Below, one piece after another: positions 8,901 through 17,561 of a stretch of DNA of 64,000 bases. Location of the stretch: contig NZ_ATTE01000001.1 of the NCBI RefSeq assembly GCF_000419525.1, forward strand, positions 3,966,501 through 4,030,500, in the 5' to 3' direction. Each line of letters starts with the position of its first letter. The first letter of the stretch is position 1. The position numbers and the translations under genes were made by a program. The notes beneath the pieces are model-generated. The model was not told where the DNA came from. It saw nothing but the letters and a program-made list of their open reading frames with translations, and made no database searches. Source of the stretch: Leucothrix mucor DSM 2157 (lineage in GTDB: Bacteria > Pseudomonadota > Gammaproteobacteria > Thiotrichales > Thiotrichaceae).

Positions 8901-8995
8901 AACTAAACGATGCGCCGCACACCGGTTGATGTCCAGTTGTAATTGTCGCTAACTTGCCCGTTCGTATCGGGTTTTTTAAAGAAACGGAGTTTAAT

Positions 8996-10585
8996 ATGTC
9001 CTTATGGAAACACGCGCTACCGTTATTTTCTGCACTAAGCTTTTGCCTGATCGCTCAGGTTGCTTCTGCCGAAATGGTGTTAAACCGCGGTAATGGTGCA
9101 GAACCTCAATCCTTAGACCCTCAGATTAGTGAAGGCGTTCCAGCCAGTCACATTCAGCGGGATTTGTTTGAAGGTTTGGTCTCTGAAGACCCGGATGCCA
9201 AAGTGGTACCTGGCGTTGCAGAAAGCTGGGCGCTTGCCGAAGATGGTTTAAGCTATACCTTCAAGCTCAGGGATAACGCCAAGTGGACCAATGGCGAGCC
9301 TGTCACTGCGGGAGACTTTGTCTACGCTTATCGCCGTGGTGTTGATCCGGCAACCGGCTCTGCTTATTCCTTCCTGCTGTTTTCTATCCTAAATGCAGAA
9401 GCCATTGCCGAGGGCAAAATGAAGCCGGAAGAGCTGGGTGTGACTGCGGTTGATGACCATACACTGGAAATCAAACTGGCTGGCCCAACGCCTTACTTCC
9501 TGCAACTGCTAACGCATTCTGTAGCATTGCCAACTCCAAAAGCGACCATCGAGAAGTTTGGCGATAAGTGGACGTTACCTGAAAATATTGTGAGCAACGG
9601 CCCATTCAAAATGGAAGCTTGGGTACCACAAGGCAGTATTACACTGGTTAAAAGTGATAACTACTGGGATGCAGATGCGGTTAAGTTGGATAAAGTCGTG
9701 TTCTTCCCAACTGAAGATCAGTCTGCTGAGCTAAAAGCGTTTCAGGCCGGTGAGTTGGATTACACCTACGAAATTCCAAAAGATCAGATTGCCTTCATTC
9801 GTGAAAAATATTCTGATCAGCTGAATATCAAGCCTTACCTTGGAACCTACTACTACGGTTTAAACACCACCAAGCCACCATTTGATAATGCTGACTTGCG
9901 TCGTGCTTTTGATATGGCGCTGAACCGTGAGCTAATCACGTCTCGCGTAACCAATGCTGGTGAACTCCCTGCCTACAGCTTTGTACCTGCTGGTGTTGAT
10001 GGCTATGAGCCTGTGTATCTTGATTTTAAAGACATGGACTACAAAGAGCGTGCCGCTGAGGCTGTTAAACTGTATGAAAAAGCAGGCTATGGCAAAGATA
10101 AGCCTTTGGAAGTTGAGCTGCGTTATAACACCAGTGACAACCACAAACGTATTGCCTTAGCGGTTGCCGGAACGTGGCAGCGTGTGTTCCCTGGGTTGAA
10201 AGTGAATCTGGTGAATGAAGAGTGGAAAGTGTATCTGGAAAGCCGTAAAGCGAAGCAGGTCACACAGATCTTCCGTGCAGGCTGGATTGGCGATTATAAC
10301 GATGCCAATACCTTCCTTGAGCTATGGCAGTCAAAATCTGGTTTGAATGATACCGGCTACGACAGCACGACATTTGATCAGGCGCTGAAAGATGCCGGTC
10401 AGGAAGCGGATGCAGACAAGCGTAAGGCGCTGCTGCAAAAAGCGGAGCGTGATCTGCTGGATTCTCACTCTGTTATCCCAATCTACACCTATGTGACCAC
10501 TCACCTGATCAACCCTAAGGTTAAAGGCCTGTCGGGTAACGTGATGGATCACACCCGAGATAAGTACGTCACCATCGAAGAATAA
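8996..10585 (+). CDS. oppA: Periplasmic oligopeptide-binding protein of an ABC importer
   Basis: This is the solute-binding subunit (SBP_bac_5 family, 529 residues) that captures peptides in the periplasm for the Opp transporter. The signal peptide runs to about VASA (residue 23). The early mature sequence with EPQSLDPQ, DLFEGLV and LRDNAKWTNGEPVTAGDF is typical of E. coli-type OppA. I chose the ATG at 8996, preceded by ACGGAG and giving a clean signal peptide, over a TTG 14 codons upstream. It is the first gene of oppABCDF. A strong stem-loop follows it before oppB, which could raise oppA mRNA relative to the rest. Confidence 0.92.
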   Translation: MSLWKHALPLFSALSFCLIAQVASAEMVLNRGNGAEPQSLDPQISEGVPASHIQRDLFEGLVSEDPDAKVVPGVAESWALAEDGLSYTFKLRDNAKWTNGEPVTAGDFVYAYRRGVDPATGSAYSFLLFSILNAEAIAEGKMKPEELGVTAVDDHTLEIKLAGPTPYFLQLLTHSVALPTPKATIEKFGDKWTLPENIVSNGPFKMEAWVPQGSITLVKSDNYWDADAVKLDKVVFFPTEDQSAELKAFQAGELDYTYEIPKDQIAFIREKYSDQLNIKPYLGTYYYGLNTTKPPFDNADLRRAFDMALNRELITSRVTNAGELPAYSFVPAGVDGYEPVYLDFKDMDYKERAAEAVKLYEKAGYGKDKPLEVELRYNTSDNHKRIALAVAGTWQRVFPGLKVNLVNEEWKVYLESRKAKQVTQIFRAGWIGDYNDANTFLELWQSKSGLNDTGYDSTTFDQALKDAGQEADADKRKALLQKAERDLLDSHSVIPIYTYVTTHLINPKVKGLSGNVMDHTRDKYVTIEE

Positions 10586-10597
10586 GTACTCTCTTAA

Positions 10598-10626
10598 GAA
10601 TACCGGGTAATCGTTACCCGGTATTC
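10598..10626 (+). promoter_or_regulatory. Perfect 13-bp stem-loop between oppA and oppB
   Basis: The arms GAATACCGGGTAA (10598-10610) and TTACCCGGTATTC (10614-10626) are perfect complements around a three-base loop. No T run follows. It sits 13 bases after the oppA stop and 38 before the oppB start. Such hairpins often protect the 3' end of the binding-protein message or partly stop transcription, giving excess binding protein over permease. The structure is seen; the role is inferred. Confidence 0.75.
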
Positions 10627-10664
10627 CCTGCGCGTTCGCGCTATTTCGGACAAAGGCGTTGATT

Positions 10665-11645
10665 ATGTTACGTTATTTTTTGAGTCGCATTTTAATAGCG
10701 ATTCCTACTTTGTTTGCTGTGATTACCCTGTCATTTTTTCTGGTTCATGCCGCACCCGGCAGCCCATTTGACACTGAAAAACCACTTCCTCCTGTTATCC
10801 GTGCCAACCTCGATGCTAAATATGGCCTCGATAAACCGGTTTGGGAGCAATATTTACGCTACGTTGGCGGCTTAGTCTCGCTGCAACGTAAAGAAGGCGA
10901 TCTGCTACCCAGCATCGAACTGGATTTTGGCCCGTCTTATCAATACAAAGACCGTACGGTCACCTATTTCATCATGTCCGGCTTTCCGGTTTCACTCAAA
11001 TTGGGCTTGATGGCGATTGCCATTGCGCTGGTGGTGGGAGTCACCGCAGGCTCGCTCGCGGCCTTGCGGCAAAATACCTGGATTGATTACACCGTGATGG
11101 GGTTCTCAATGACGGGCATTACGGTGCCTAACTTCGTAGTCGGGCCGCTGCTGCAATTGATGGTGATTGGCATTATGTCGATGACGGCGGTGCAGCTATT
11201 CCCTATTACCGGCTGGGGCGATTCCTGGACACAAGCCATATTGCCCGTATTCGTATTGGCCTTGCCGCAAATCGCTTATATTGCCCGCCAAACCCGCGGC
11301 AGTATGATCGAAGTTTTGCGCTCCAACTACGTGCGTACGGCTCGCGCTAAAGGGATGCCAGAGCGGATTACATTGACGCGTCATGCACTCAAAGCGGCGA
11401 TATTACCGGTGGTTTCCTACCTTGGGCCTGCGGTGGCGGCGATTACCACTGGTTCGGTGGTGGTGGAGAAAATCTTCCGTATACCGGGCATTGGAACGCA
11501 CTTTGTTAACGGCGCACTAAACCGTGACTACACCATGGTGATGGGCGTGGTGATCTTCTTTGGCGCGATTATTATTATCGCCAATCTGATCGTCGACGTG
11601 CTCTACGGTGTGCTCGACCCGCGTGTACGCGCTTCCCACGATTAG
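10665..11645 (+). CDS. oppB: Oligopeptide ABC transporter permease
   Basis: First inner-membrane permease of the peptide importer, about 326 residues. The N-terminal MLRYFLSRILIAIPTLF and the HAAPGSPFD motif are typical of OppB/DppB. The EAA-loop segment YVRTARAKGMPERIT, which docks on the ATPases, is present. I prefer the ATG at 10665, with AAAGG upstream, over the TTG two codons earlier. It lies between oppA and oppC, 28 bases from oppC, in one operon. Confidence 0.92.
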   Translation: MLRYFLSRILIAIPTLFAVITLSFFLVHAAPGSPFDTEKPLPPVIRANLDAKYGLDKPVWEQYLRYVGGLVSLQRKEGDLLPSIELDFGPSYQYKDRTVTYFIMSGFPVSLKLGLMAIAIALVVGVTAGSLAALRQNTWIDYTVMGFSMTGITVPNFVVGPLLQLMVIGIMSMTAVQLFPITGWGDSWTQAILPVFVLALPQIAYIARQTRGSMIEVLRSNYVRTARAKGMPERITLTRHALKAAILPVVSYLGPAVAAITTGSVVVEKIFRIPGIGTHFVNGALNRDYTMVMGVVIFFGAIIIIANLIVDVLYGVLDPRVRASHD

Positions 11646-11673
11646 GCAACGGTAGTCAAACCAAGGACGTTTT

Positions 11674-12618
11674 ATGAGTACGACACACACAACGCCAGTG
11701 GGAACTCCGGTTGCGGAGGCTTTACCCAAAGGGCGATCGTTATGGGCTGATGCAGGCAAACGCTTTAGCCGAAACAAGCTGGCAATGGCCAGCGTAGTAG
11801 CACTGTTCATTATTATTGTGGTGGCCTTTTTAGCGCCATTATTAACCCCGTGGCCACATGACATCATTTTAAATAATGAAGCGATGTTCAGTGATCAGTT
11901 TGCGGCGTTTAATGACACCAACTTTCCGCGCAGGCCAGACTTTGCTAACTCACTCTGGTTTGGAACTGGCGTAAATGATCGGGATCTGTTTTATCGCTGC
12001 ATGATTGGCGTGCTGGTCTCTCTAGCCGTGGGTTTAACCGCGTCGATGGTGGCCTTAGTTATCGGTGTGGCGTATGGCGCAACCGCTGGCTATTTCGGTG
12101 GCCGTACCGATCAGGTGATGATGCGCATCGTGGATATCATTTATGCGCTGCCGTTTATGTTTATCGTGATTTTGCTGATGGTGCTATTCGGACGGAATTT
12201 TATTCTGATGTTTGCTGCCATTGGTGCGGTGGAGTGGCTGACCATGGCGCGGATTGTACGTGGCCAAACGCTGTCGCTTAAAAGTCGCGAATTCGTGATT
12301 GCCGCCCGTGCGTCTGGTGTTTCCAGTTTTAATATTATCCGGCGTCATATTATCCCGAATCTGTTAGGGCCGGTGATCGTGTACGTCACGCTGGTGGTGC
12401 CGCAGGTTATTCTGGTGGAGAGCTTTTTGAGCTTCTTGGGATTAGGCGTACAGGAGCCCAATACCAGCTTAGGCGTATTAATCAGTGAAGGGGCCAAGCG
12501 TCTTGAAGATGCGCCGCATACTTTGCTATTCCCGGCAGTGATTCTGGCCATCATTCTGTTTAGCCTTAACTTTATTGGTGATGGCTTGCGGGATGCTCTC
12601 GATCCTAAAGACCGCTAA
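11674..12618 (+). CDS. oppC: Oligopeptide ABC transporter permease
   Basis: Second permease subunit, 314 residues. It has the OppC-type cytoplasmic N terminus, a first helix near residue 45, a long periplasmic loop with the RDLFYRCM segment, and the EAA loop REFVIAARASGVSSF. The C-terminal NFIGDGLRDALDPKDR is a family hallmark. AAGGAC precedes the ATG. It follows oppB and sits nine bases before the preferred oppD start. Confidence 0.93.
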   Translation: MSTTHTTPVGTPVAEALPKGRSLWADAGKRFSRNKLAMASVVALFIIIVVAFLAPLLTPWPHDIILNNEAMFSDQFAAFNDTNFPRRPDFANSLWFGTGVNDRDLFYRCMIGVLVSLAVGLTASMVALVIGVAYGATAGYFGGRTDQVMMRIVDIIYALPFMFIVILLMVLFGRNFILMFAAIGAVEWLTMARIVRGQTLSLKSREFVIAARASGVSSFNIIRRHIIPNLLGPVIVYVTLVVPQVILVESFLSFLGLGVQEPNTSLGVLISEGAKRLEDAPHTLLFPAVILAIILFSLNFIGDGLRDALDPKDR

Positions 12619-12627
12619 GGGGTGATT

Positions 12628-13665
12628 ATGTCTGAGATAAAACAAAACCAGCCGGTGCTATCGGTGAGAGATCTGACAGTCACCTTCCAGACCAATGATG
12701 GTCCGGTGAGTGCGGTCAGTAATATGAGTTTCGATGTGGCCGCCGGTGAAACGGTGGGTGTGGTGGGTGAGTCGGGCTCCGGAAAGTCGCAAACCTTTCT
12801 GGCGATTATGGGCTTACTGGCCCAAAACGGTGAAGCTACTGGCTCGGCGATCTTGCATACCAAAGGCGAATCACATGAACTAGTGGGCATGAGTATCGAT
12901 AATCTGAACCGCTTGCGTGGTTCCAGTATGTCGATGATTTTTCAGGACCCGATGACCTCGCTTAACCCGTATTTAAAAATCCGTACGCAAATGATCGAAG
13001 TGCTGACATTTCATCAGGGAATGGATAAGAAAAGTGCCGAACAGCGAGCGTTGGAGCTGTTGGAGCGGGTGCGCATTCCGGAAGCTAAAGCGCGGTTAAA
13101 TCAATACCCGCATGAGCTATCCGGTGGTATGCGTCAGCGGGTGATGATTGCCATGGCTCTACTCTGTGAGCCAGCCTTGCTGATTGCCGATGAGCCAACT
13201 ACGGCTTTGGATGTCACGGTACAAGCGCAGGTTTTACACTTGTTGAGTGATCTGAAACGTGACTTTAATACCGCGATCGTACTGATTACCCATGACTTGG
13301 GCGTGGTAGCCGGTGTATGTGATCGGGTACAGGTCATGTATGGCGGCCGCTTAGCGGAAATTGCGCCAGTCGATAATATTTTCTACCAGCCGCAACACCC
13401 CTACACGCGCGGTTTACTGCACTCCACGCCAATTATTGGTGTACGTGGTGACAAGGGCAATCATGGCTTGTTGGCAACCATTGATGGGCAACCTCCCAAT
13501 CTGCAGCATTTACCGGAAGGTTGCGCTTTTGCGCCACGCTGTGCTCATGTTATGGGTCAGTGCACCGTAACGCCACCTGCGCTCTCTGCGGTTGATTCAG
13601 GGCATCAGCGGGCCTGCTATGCGCCATTATTTGATAATACTGCCACGCAAGGAGACTCCGTATGA
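12628..13665 (+). CDS. oppD: Oligopeptide ABC transporter ATP-binding protein
   Basis: First ATPase of the importer, about 345 residues. Walker A is GESGSGKS, the signature is LSGGMRQRV, and Walker B is LLIADEPTTALD. The C-terminal oligopeptide-transporter extension has the cysteine-containing motif CAFAPRCAHVMGQC. I chose the ATG at 12628 with AAGGGG upstream; a GTG two codons earlier is possible. The stop overlaps the oppF start by four bases (ATGA), so the two ATPases are translationally coupled. Confidence 0.93.
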   Translation: MSEIKQNQPVLSVRDLTVTFQTNDGPVSAVSNMSFDVAAGETVGVVGESGSGKSQTFLAIMGLLAQNGEATGSAILHTKGESHELVGMSIDNLNRLRGSSMSMIFQDPMTSLNPYLKIRTQMIEVLTFHQGMDKKSAEQRALELLERVRIPEAKARLNQYPHELSGGMRQRVMIAMALLCEPALLIADEPTTALDVTVQAQVLHLLSDLKRDFNTAIVLITHDLGVVAGVCDRVQVMYGGRLAEIAPVDNIFYQPQHPYTRGLLHSTPIIGVRGDKGNHGLLATIDGQPPNLQHLPEGCAFAPRCAHVMGQCTVTPPALSAVDSGHQRACYAPLFDNTATQGDSV

Positions 13666-14687
13666 GCCGTGCACCGGTTATTCTTGAAGTCGAAAACCTC
13701 AAAGTCTGGTTTCCAACCATTGTGAATCAAGGCTTATGGGGCAAGCGCCGCTATGTCAAAGCGATTGATGGCATCTCATTTAATGTGCGTGAGGGTGAAG
13801 TATTAGGGGTGGTTGGTGAGTCTGGCTGCGGTAAGTCGACTATGGGTATGGCGGTATTAAACCTGCTAAAACCCACGGATGGTCGTGCCGTTTGGATGGG
13901 TGAAGATCTGTACACCATGTCATCCAGTAAGCTGCAAAAAGTCCGGCAAAATCTGCAGGTGATTTTTCAGGACCCCGTTGCTAGCTTGGACCCACGCATG
14001 ACGGTTGGCCAGATTATTGCTGAGCCATTGATTACCCATCAGCCGGAGCTGAGCAAGCAGGAAGTGCATGAGCAAGTGCACGCCGTGATGAAGAAAGTGG
14101 GCTTACTGCCGGAGATGATTAATCGTTATCCGCATGAGTTCTCCGGTGGACAAGCACAGCGTATTGGCATTGCGCGGGCGATTATTCTACGCCCTAAGCT
14201 GATTGTCTGTGATGAAGCGGTCTCGGCGCTGGATGTATCAATTCAGGCGCAGATTATCAATCTGCTCAAGGCCTTGCGCGATGAAATGGGCTTAAGCCTG
14301 ATTTTTATCTCGCACAATATGAGTGTAGTGCACCATATTTCAGACCGTATTTTGGTGCTGTATTTAGGGAAAGTGATGGAAGTGGCAGATGCGGATGACC
14401 TGATCTATGCCCCGCAACACCCGTACAGTAAAGCCTTGATTTCAGCGGTGCCAATTGCCGATCCACGTAAATACCGTGCGAATAAAATGATTGAATTGAC
14501 GGGTGATATTCCCTCGCCACTTAATCCACCACCGGGCTGTGTGTTTTCAACGCGTTGCCCGCTGGCAGATGAGCAATGCAAGCGTGATGCACCGGCCTTG
14601 CAGGAGATTCAGGCACAAACTGACGAGCTCGAAGCGCATCAAGTCGCCTGTCATTACTATCAGCGAATTGATGAAGTTGGCGCTTAA
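13662..14687 (+). CDS. oppF: Oligopeptide ABC transporter ATP-binding protein
   Basis: Second ATPase, 341 residues, expected to form a heterodimer with OppD on the OppBC channel. Walker A is GESGCGKST, the signature is FSGGQAQRIG, and Walker B is LIVCDEAVSALDVS. The C-terminal motif CVFSTRCPLADEQC matches the peptide-transporter extension. It starts inside the oppD stop and ends the operon. A hairpin about 75 bases downstream probably ends transcription. Confidence 0.93.
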   Translation: MSRAPVILEVENLKVWFPTIVNQGLWGKRRYVKAIDGISFNVREGEVLGVVGESGCGKSTMGMAVLNLLKPTDGRAVWMGEDLYTMSSSKLQKVRQNLQVIFQDPVASLDPRMTVGQIIAEPLITHQPELSKQEVHEQVHAVMKKVGLLPEMINRYPHEFSGGQAQRIGIARAIILRPKLIVCDEAVSALDVSIQAQIINLLKALRDEMGLSLIFISHNMSVVHHISDRILVLYLGKVMEVADADDLIYAPQHPYSKALISAVPIADPRKYRANKMIELTGDIPSPLNPPPGCVFSTRCPLADEQCKRDAPALQEIQAQTDELEAHQVACHYYQRIDEVGA

Positions 14688-15022: not shown

Positions 15023-15502
15023 ATGAATAGCTTTACCTTTAACCACTCCATTAAGCTGACTAAAACGCCGTTGGCGCTGGCATTCGCAGCCCTATTTTTA
15101 AACACAGCAGCTTCTGCGCTGGTTGTCCCTGCCAATCCTGTACAGGCGTTTTATAATTCTGAAAATTACACCTATTGTGATGCCAAGCTATTGTCGGCTT
15201 ATTGGGGAAATTCGCCGTGGGATGCCAAAGTACGGGCCGGCAATAAGGCCCTCAATAATGAATACACGGTGATTGAGGACTATCTGCGCTCAGCCCGCAA
15301 CTATGCCGTGGAGCATAATGTGCGCTGTACTTGGGATGATGGAAATAACCCCGATTACAGCTATGACGATGCCAAGCAATTAGCCAACTACTGGGGCAAG
15401 GCAACCCCTTGGGACGCCAAGCTGAAAATCGGCACAATGTTGCAGGATGGTGATAATAAGTTGGTGATTGAAGCCTTAAGTCGTGCTCGTCGTGGCGGTT
15501 AA
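15023..15502 (+). CDS. Secreted protein with two internal repeats and a C-terminal Arg-Gly-Gly
   Basis: A 159-residue protein with a Sec signal peptide (residues 1 to about 32, cleavage near ASA). The mature part contains two copies of a roughly 45-residue unit, about 49-92 and 111-156. Each has a Y-x-Y-x-DAK-x-L-x-x-YWG core followed by PWDAK and a helix ending in a [S/R]-A-R. The protein ends in RARRGG, then the stop. AGGA stands seven bases before the ATG. The amidoligase gene starts only seven bases later, so the pair should be co-translated. I do not recognise the repeat family; no function is claimed. Confidence 0.75.
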   Translation: MNSFTFNHSIKLTKTPLALAFAALFLNTAASALVVPANPVQAFYNSENYTYCDAKLLSAYWGNSPWDAKVRAGNKALNNEYTVIEDYLRSARNYAVEHNVRCTWDDGNNPDYSYDDAKQLANYWGKATPWDAKLKIGTMLQDGDNKLVIEALSRARRGG

Positions 15503-15508
15503 ACCTGC

Positions 15509-16615
15509 TTGAGTAAGGTCGCGGAGCCAGTACAGCTGGCATGGAAAATTGGCATTGAGGTTGAGTTGTTAGCGCCGCTGGGTCGCAGCCGTTTAGATCT
15601 GGCTCAGGCGTTGGCTGATCAATGCGGTGGCCACGTGCAGCGATTTTTTCATCCGCAATCAGAACCGAGTCAGGTGGCCGGTGCGCCAGTGTTTGAAAAC
15701 CTGACTTTGGGCTTTAAAGTGTTGGATGCGCAAGGGCAATTAGTGGCCAATTGTGTGGATGACCTGACCTTGCAAAAGGACTTGGTACGACAACGATTAC
15801 CACGACCTGATTGGTATCGGATTGTGAGCGATGATAGTCGCATGATTCGCTTAATTATGCGGCAAGCCGATGCCTCTGAGACTTGTACGCAGGTGCTGGA
15901 GCCGCTGGCAGAGCTATTTGGCTCCGAGCTTGCGATAAATCCCGATGGTATGGTGCGCCTAAGCGATGATACCGGCATGTCGATAGCCATTGCAGCACCA
16001 TTACCCGGTGAGCGGGAACGCCCCTGTGAGCTGATTACGGTGCCTATTGAAGACCATCACCACCAACGACTGGAAGGTCTTCTATCTGTCGCCAATAAGC
16101 TGGAGTTCTACGTACCCGTTGAAGGCGCAACCCATATTCATTTTGATGCCGAAGCCCTGTGCTCGGCATCGGTGTTGGCTAATCTGATCAATGTGCTACA
16201 AGTGCATGGGGCTGGTTTGCGTCGTTTAGTTGGTGCGAATGCCAACTGCACACGCCTCGGTGACTGGCCTGATGCTTTGTACGATGTCGTGAAACAAGAT
16301 GATTTTATTGATTTAACGTGGGAGCAAGTCCAAGCTCAATTGAGTGCGGTAAAGCTCACTAAATTCTGTGACTTTAATATCAAGAATATGATTGAGGGAA
16401 CGCCAGATAAGCATACGTTTGAAGTGCGTATTTTTCCGGTGTGGCTGGAAGCAGAGCCTATTTTAGAAGCCGCTGGCTTATTCGAAGCGATTTTGAATTG
16501 GGCGATTGAGGCCGGACCGGTTCGAGCGGAGGTGCCATCCGCGTTATCTGGCTTGCTTGAGACCGTTCCAATGAATGCCTCATTGCGTGATTGCTGGCTT
16601 AATCGCTTGGCTTGA
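15509..16615 (+). CDS. Predicted amidoligase (COOH-NH2 ligase, glutamine-synthetase-like fold)
   Basis: A 368-residue cytosolic protein with hallmarks of the putative amidoligase family: KIGIEVELLAPLG near the N terminus, THIHFDAEALCS in the middle, and KFCDFNIKN...TFEVRIFPVW towards the end. This family shares the fold of glutamine synthetase and gamma-glutamylcysteine ligase and is predicted to join a carboxyl to an amino group using ATP. The only in-frame start that fits is a TTG at 15509, seven bases after the preceding stop, with no strong ribosome site of its own; translation is probably coupled to the upstream secreted protein. No glutamine amidotransferase partner, common in other loci, is present. 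Substrate unknown. Confidence 0.7.
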   Translation: MSKVAEPVQLAWKIGIEVELLAPLGRSRLDLAQALADQCGGHVQRFFHPQSEPSQVAGAPVFENLTLGFKVLDAQGQLVANCVDDLTLQKDLVRQRLPRPDWYRIVSDDSRMIRLIMRQADASETCTQVLEPLAELFGSELAINPDGMVRLSDDTGMSIAIAAPLPGERERPCELITVPIEDHHHQRLEGLLSVANKLEFYVPVEGATHIHFDAEALCSASVLANLINVLQVHGAGLRRLVGANANCTRLGDWPDALYDVVKQDDFIDLTWEQVQAQLSAVKLTKFCDFNIKNMIEGTPDKHTFEVRIFPVWLEAEPILEAAGLFEAILNWAIEAGPVRAEVPSALSGLLETVPMNASLRDCWLNRLA

Positions 16616-16790: not shown

Positions 16791-17561
16791 ATGCCTGTAA
16801 ACGCCAAACGCTGGACGACACCGCTGGTTGCAACACTCTTTATCTCATCGCTAAGCATGACAGTAATGGCGTCAGAGTATCGCTGCGGCTGGCTGGAAAA
16901 CCCCACGGCGGATAATTTTTGGCTCAATGATAAAGATGGTAATTGGACGATTACCTCTCAGGATGGCTATTCGGTCGGTGCTGATTCGATCGACAAGCTG
17001 CCAGAAGTGAATGATGATGAATACGTAAAAACCAATGGCTACTACGGCTACTCTTGTGGCTGCCTGAGCGTAACCACCGATCAAAATCTGAAGCGTATTA
17101 TCAGTGTCGACACCAAGGGTAAGCAGGAGCTGTTGAAAACCTGCCTTGAGAATCGTGACCTGACGCCTAAAAAGGTCGTGCTAAACCAACCTCCTGTGGC
17201 CACTGCAGCCGCGAGTGCACCTGCGGTTACAGTCAATACTGCAGCACCTGTGGCCGCTGCTCCAGCTCCAGTCGTTGCACAACCGGTGGCGGTTCCCGTT
17301 GAGCAACAGCCTCATATGATTCAGATTTTCTCTAGTTACGATGTGAATAAAGCCAATCGGCTGCAACGGGTACTTAACCAAAATACGTTTCCAATCTTGG
17401 TGCAACCCGGTGAGTACAAAGGAAGGCCGATTTATCGTGTTCGAGTTGGGCCATTTCCAACTAAGCAGGCTGCTATTGCTAAGCAAAACGCGATCAAGCG
17501 CATGTTTAAAGACAATCAGTCGATACAAAGCAGTATTGTAATCAGAGTGGGTGGCTGGTAA
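16791..17561 (+). CDS. Secreted DUF4087-like protein with C-terminal SPOR domain
   Basis: A 256-residue exported protein. After a signal peptide ending near VMAS (residue 28) comes a domain starting YRCGWLENPTADNFWL, which matches my memory of DUF4087; it holds several cysteines, including CGC near residue 90. A Pro/Ala/Val-rich linker spans about 133-172. The last 80 residues form a SPOR domain (IQIFSSYDVNKAN ... YRVRVGPFPTKQAA), which binds peptidoglycan lacking stem peptides, usually at division sites. GGGAGC precedes the ATG. The combination suggests a periplasmic protein targeted to the septum or wall; the role of the first domain is unknown. Confidence 0.75.
   Translation: MPVNAKRWTTPLVATLFISSLSMTVMASEYRCGWLENPTADNFWLNDKDGNWTITSQDGYSVGADSIDKLPEVNDDEYVKTNGYYGYSCGCLSVTTDQNLKRIISVDTKGKQELLKTCLENRDLTPKKVVLNQPPVATAAASAPAVTVNTAAPVAAAPAPVVAQPVAVPVEQQPHMIQIFSSYDVNKANRLQRVLNQNTFPILVQPGEYKGRPIYRVRVGPFPTKQAAIAKQNAIKRMFKDNQSIQSSIVIRVGGW

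Follow-up and report, generated by a model that had tools for sequence, protein, structure and literature searches.

The window, a stretch of 64,000 nucleotides from Leucothrix mucor DSM 2157, carries a pair of adjacent genes on its forward strand. The upstream gene (15023..15502) encodes a protein of 159 residues with two three-helix repeats, and the downstream gene (15509..16615) encodes an amidoligase of 368 residues with a glutamine-synthetase-like fold. The TTG start of the latter at 15509 lies six bases past the stop of the repeat gene and is the sole ATG, GTG or TTG codon upstream of the WKIGxExEL start conserved in the homologues, which begin at about the same position. A first-pass annotation had described the pair as an exported-type protein with two repeats and a RARRGG end followed by a TTG-started amidoligase, and each of these features was confirmed. 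A scan for promoters and terminators gave no clear signal.

The repeat protein opens with a probable Sec signal peptide (residues 1-32; 15023..15118), recognised in the sequence by the basic residues K11 and K14, a hydrophobic core and an ASA/L junction. Profile matches delineate a first repeat spanning residues 42-89 (15146..15289), with C52, D53, W61 and K69, and a second spanning residues 109-153 (15347..15481), with D116, W124 and K133; the two are of about 48 residues each and share 39% identity. An AlphaFold2 model computed from 38 sequences has a mean pLDDT of 85, with values mostly of 93-97 in the repeats, and predicts helices at residues 51-61, 65-77 and 81-97 for the first repeat and at 114-124, 129-141 and 145-158 for the second. 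The C-terminal RARRGG (15482..15499) follows the second repeat. A Cytochrome_cB match to this protein was rejected, as its e-value of 0.014 fell below the cut-off and it did not recur among 47 homologues.

The amidoligase, the only PF12224 protein encoded in this genome, matches the Pfam Amidoligase_2 model with 38.7 bits over residues 12-325 (cut-off 22). It displays a GIEVE motif (residues 15-19) and an ERERPCE motif (residues 168-174), both of which are conserved. An alignment of 45 amidoligases revealed the shared signatures GxExE, HxH, ExR and ERxRxCE, with G15, E17, E19, H209, H211, E305 and R307 being invariant; the first three signatures resemble metal-site residues. The AlphaFold2 model (pLDDT 95, pTM 0.91) confidently shows a glutamine-synthetase-like fold. 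A sequence search of solved structures recovered nothing significant, while the best structural match of the model was the glutamate-cysteine ligase YbdK (1r8g/1tt4; Z 12.5-12.6 over about 215 residues, 18-19% identity), followed by glutamine synthetases and the depupylase Dop, each with Z about 11-12. The glutamine-synthetase fold proposed in the first-pass annotation is thus borne out by the Pfam match, the model and its structural neighbours. Judging by the conserved motifs and the fold matches, the protein is very probably active as an ATP-dependent ligase of the carboxylate-amine type. No signal peptide was seen in the amidoligases of the homologous loci.

To delineate the distribution of the pair, genome contigs were scanned with a profile of the amidoligase, which yielded 60 loci, and a profile of the repeat was then run on their flanks. 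The loci span at least six phyla and come from Cyanobacteria, Alpha- and Gammaproteobacteria, Verrucomicrobia, Actinomycetes, a Leptospiraceae MAG, a myxobacterial MAG and a contig labelled Oceanobacillus; the amidoligase of the last groups with alphaproteobacterial sequences and the contig may be mislabelled. A repeat gene was found within the 6 kb flanks in 51 of the 60 loci. Among the nine loci lacking an adjacent repeat, one (L039) has it 7.3 kb upstream of the amidoligase on the same strand, and three (L052, L057 and L064) are truncated where their contigs stop; for L052 the partner lies on another contig (L069), and the genomes of the other two encode repeats elsewhere. In L017, L029, L060, L067 and L068 the flank is sufficient and the repeat absent, and the amidoligase frame is broken by stops or frameshifts. 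These five are cyanobacterial pseudogenes or remnants, and no repeat protein was found in their whole genomes, indicating that the module decays as a unit. A broken amidoligase frame alongside a repeat was seen only in L054 and L066, and the 2x2 table of broken frames against absent repeats gives a Fisher p of 5e-6.

The same picture emerged when whole genomes were surveyed. Among 57 relatives, 3 encode the amidoligase and the identical 3 encode the repeat protein. Both were present in 4 of 292 cyanobacterial genomes, with 1 more retaining only a 53-codon amidoligase fragment with a stop, and the rest having neither. Likewise, of 201 Micromonosporaceae genomes, the 37 with the amidoligase are exactly the 37 with the repeat. 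The co-occurrence that the first-pass annotation had proposed to examine in homologues therefore holds for all 37 Micromonosporaceae and all 4 cyanobacterial genomes with an amidoligase. Across the 550 genomes of these three sets, 44 encode both proteins (two or three of which were already among the 60 loci), 505 encode neither, 1 has the amidoligase fragment only and 0 have the repeat alone.

Gene order and orientation vary among the loci, with the repeat gene lying upstream, downstream or divergent with respect to the amidoligase. Picosynechococcus PCC 7117 carries two such pairs. In actinomycetes with a single amidoligase (L102-L106) extra repeat proteins are encoded far from the enzyme gene, and an alphaproteobacterium (L107) encodes a similar unlinked extra copy. 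At L056 (1894-5986), a single amidoligase is preceded by a tandem array of three or four paralogous repeat proteins, of which the last is degenerate and has lost the invariant lysine described below. Beyond these two families, none was met repeatedly in the flanks, including among 75 flanking proteins that were examined; in particular, no exporter, protease or third enzyme was found to recur there, and neither glutamine amidotransferases nor Aig2 cyclotransferases were among the recurrent families of those 75 proteins. The divergence of the two proteins is moderately correlated (Spearman 0.42 over 946 locus pairs), a value that is uncorrected for relatedness and is not relied on here. The amidoligase and the repeat gene form a conserved, strictly paired two-gene module, and their association goes well beyond chance. 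Its co-retention and co-loss suggest a system that has not been described: searches of titles and abstracts of the open-access literature returned no description of such a module, and within the reach of these searches it is apparently new.

The amidoligase of the window falls in a loose group with sequences from Parabeggiatoa, Verrucomicrobia and Cyanobacteria, and that of L. pacifica is placed elsewhere on a long branch. The neighbourhoods of the two modules are unrelated, with the L. pacifica module lying on a different contig from the orthologue of the window's neighbour gene, and an empty-site comparison with other Leucothrix genomes detected no shared synteny around the module. These separate branches and unrelated neighbourhoods suggest that members of the genus Leucothrix probably gained the module on more than one occasion. 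Downstream of it in the window lies a gene (16791-17561) for a protein with a signal peptide, a DUF4087 domain and a C-terminal SPOR domain, orthologues of which occur in other Leucothrix genomes and never adjoin the amidoligase module. Directly upstream is an apparently complete oligopeptide ABC transporter operon (8954-14687) coding for a binding protein, two permeases and two ATPases; this transporter family does not recur beside the module at other loci. A mobile-element origin was also considered and rejected, as a cyanobacterial amidoligase has no homologue in plasmid or phage records and the profile has no match in viral contigs. Membership in an anti-phage defence system was rejected too, there being no match to any PADLOC model.

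The repeat, present in 1-5 copies per protein, is about 48 residues long and is typified by the pattern Y-x-Y-x-D-A-x-x-L-A-x-x-W-G ... A-K-x-x-I-G-x-K, with three helices predicted at high confidence (AlphaFold2, 38 sequences). Its tryptophan is conserved in 164 of 167 copies, and the acidic position is occupied by aspartate in 155 and glutamate in 10 of the 167. A lysine in the second helix is found in 162 of 165 copies and replaced by arginine in 0, with all 3 exceptions belonging to one degenerate paralogue; at three other basic positions of the same helix lysine and arginine swap freely. That arginine never appears there suggests that either the amine as such or a tight geometry is required. 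In the window protein the position corresponds to Lys69 of repeat 1 (codon 15227..15229) and Lys133 of repeat 2 (codon 15419..15421), which on the strength of this conservation are candidate modification sites. Neither Pfam nor NCBIfam contains a model of the repeat, and no recurrent match was obtained with 47 repeat proteins. Foldseek searches with the repeat returned no match at E<=0.001, and the best VIA-align hit was to a designed toroid (Z 3.6), a lack of structural matches that falls short of establishing a new fold.

Of 70 repeat proteins, 63 have a hydrophobic segment ahead of their first repeat. The first-pass annotation had itself objected that an export signal on the small protein sits ill with a ligase that looks cytosolic, and this discrepancy is real and extends to nearly all homologues. 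A cysteine preceding the aspartate of one repeat covaries with another cysteine located immediately ahead of the following repeat (24 proteins with both, 40 with neither, 2 with the first only; p = 5e-16, uncorrected for relatedness). This covariation points to a predicted disulfide, and thereby to an oxidising compartment; in the window protein it would join Cys52 (15176..15178) to Cys102 (15326..15328). The repeat proteins of L. pacifica and of an uncultured Thiotrichaceae have neither a signal nor such cysteines, which indicates that the partner can also be cytosolic; cytosolic repeat proteins include those of L055 and L069. The sequences beyond the repeats vary in both length and composition, with some tails of at least 100 residues and some bearing lectin or Ig-like domains. 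Thus, in L016 (1213-2202) the repeats are followed by ricin-type lectin repeats, and C-terminal tails of about 110 and about 380 residues extend past the repeats in L028 (4734-5936) and L011 (7052-8761), respectively; such long tails perhaps serve in surface or polysaccharide contact. Relatives of Actinoplanes (L062:4590-5989) show a further arrangement, in which an ECF sigma factor is directly followed by a single-pass membrane protein with its repeats outside, a layout reminiscent of anti-sigma factors in a protein with no recognised anti-sigma domain.

We infer that the repeat is a covalent substrate of the amidoligase. We give about even odds to the proposal that the repeat domain is modified by the enzyme while still in the cytosol, ahead of export, with the invariant lysine as the likeliest site. 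Under it, the cytosolic, ATP-dependent amidoligase of glutamine-synthetase fold would recognise the three-helix repeat and form an amide bond on it prior to export, with the invariant lysine of helix 2 of each repeat as the most likely site. The lysine could be acylated by a small carboxylate as donor or, by a different route, form a cross-link with the Asp/Glu that is nearly invariant in helix 1. A point against the scheme is that the amidoligase has no signal whereas most repeat proteins carry one, so that the modification would have to precede Sec export of an unfolded chain. The modified repeats would then act outside the cytoplasm, as secreted or membrane-anchored proteins, and inside it in a few bacteria. 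One enzyme with at least one repeat protein, and never repeats alone, is the pattern to be expected for an enzyme and its substrates, although a receptor for the product of the enzyme would fit as well. Similarly, several repeat proteins per single amidoligase would be expected if one enzyme had several substrates. The broader form of the proposal, a new protein-modification system, spread over at least six phyla, in which several repeat proteins of a cell share one enzyme that places an amide on the repeat lysine before export, we hold tentatively, as leaning somewhat to the doubtful side.

As the strongest alternative, the product of the amidoligase would be a small amide or peptide-like metabolite that exits the cell and is bound, carried or sensed by the exported repeats, with the conserved Lys, Trp and Asp lining a ligand pocket. 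The enzyme being cytosolic and the repeats outside is readily accommodated by such a scheme, as are the sensor-like placement of the membrane repeat protein immediately after an ECF sigma factor in the Actinoplanes relatives and the fact that the closest folds, YbdK and glutamine synthetase, are small-molecule ligases; a shared pathway would also account for co-loss. The shared history of the two genes could stem from a common pathway rather than from an enzyme-substrate pair, and the invariant Lys, Asp and Trp might have a structural role only, as in a buried salt bridge, or form a ligand site. However, no recurrent exporter or third enzyme lies nearby, cytosolic repeat proteins exist (L055, L069), and substrates would account no less well for the 1-5 repeats and for the presence of several repeat proteins per enzyme. 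We therefore consider a metabolite of this kind unlikely, though a serious contender. That the two genes are mere neighbours travelling together is very hard to credit: adjacency by itself gives co-inheritance, but the pair is kept across phyla in differing orders and orientations, extra unlinked repeats occur only where an amidoligase exists, and the two decay together.

A toxin-antitoxin-like arrangement, with a harmful repeat protein that the amidoligase neutralises inside the producer cell, would suit the patchy distribution, the small size of just two genes and the five broken, repeat-less amidoligases left as cyanobacterial remnants in repeat-free genomes. It is nevertheless improbable, since there is no defence-family match by PADLOC, the module was not found on plasmids, phages or viral contigs, no domain resembling a toxin is seen in the repeat, and additional unlinked copies of it do not seem to be selected against. 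Ubiquitin- or Pup-like tagging through an activated and ligated C-terminal Gly-Gly was suggested by the RARRGG end of the window protein and by Dop of the Pup pathway having the same fold. Yet only 1 of 70 homologues ends in GG, the others having termini such as QQAKP, RFARQ, LPIQP, NGLGY and IYRES, and some bearing the long tails described above, which makes such tagging exceedingly improbable. The proposed check for conservation of the Gly-Gly in homologues thus failed, and the caution of the first-pass annotation that two glycines can occur by chance was apt, the GG being due to chance or specific to the strain. The idea that the small protein is a substrate or partner of the amidoligase gained from the linkage of the genes and is now the leading one. 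Judged by what the first-pass annotation had itself named as refuting, the reactive Gly-Gly end falls with the unconserved C termini, whereas the linkage holds. In its place, the conserved candidate site suggested by the sequences is internal, the invariant lysine of each repeat.

The proposed modification of a protein substrate can be compared with several known systems. Members of PF12224 commonly, though not obligatorily, neighbour a glutamine amidotransferase or an Aig2-type cyclotransferase. The window enzyme belongs with them by its match above the curated cut-off and its full catalytic fold, whereas at these loci the repeat protein replaces such a neighbour. YbdK, the best structural match, acts on free amino acids, and differs from the window enzyme in that the two are 18-19% identical and the latter has an obligate protein partner gene. 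PafA uses the lysine epsilon-amine as acceptor, and the Pup-PafA/Dop pathway shares with the module an enzyme of the glutamine-synthetase fold, as seen in the match to Dop. However, Pup is a disordered tag, while the partner here is a predicted folded repeat that is mostly exported and lacks a conserved C-terminal GGE/GGQ, Glu/Gln or Gly-Gly. Graspetides also combine a ligase with a partner gene that has repeated units and a conserved acid and lysine, but their ligase is of the ATP-grasp type rather than of the glutamine-synthetase fold, and they have a short core peptide in place of folded helical repeats of about 48 residues with a Sec signal. Moreover, no dedicated transporter or protease recurs near the amidoligase and repeat pair.

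Ligases of the glutamine-synthetase fold that act on proteins are, to our knowledge, very few, PafA being the standard example. If the proposed modification is true, the widespread pairing of an amidoligase with a folded repeat would be a second, independent protein-directed ligase of this fold, and an unusual one in passing its product to the export pathway. The terminal Gly-Gly of the window protein is incidental to the module. As the functions of PF12224 are largely unassigned, one branch of the family gains a defined partner, and the restriction of the module to two genes makes it a directly testable pair.
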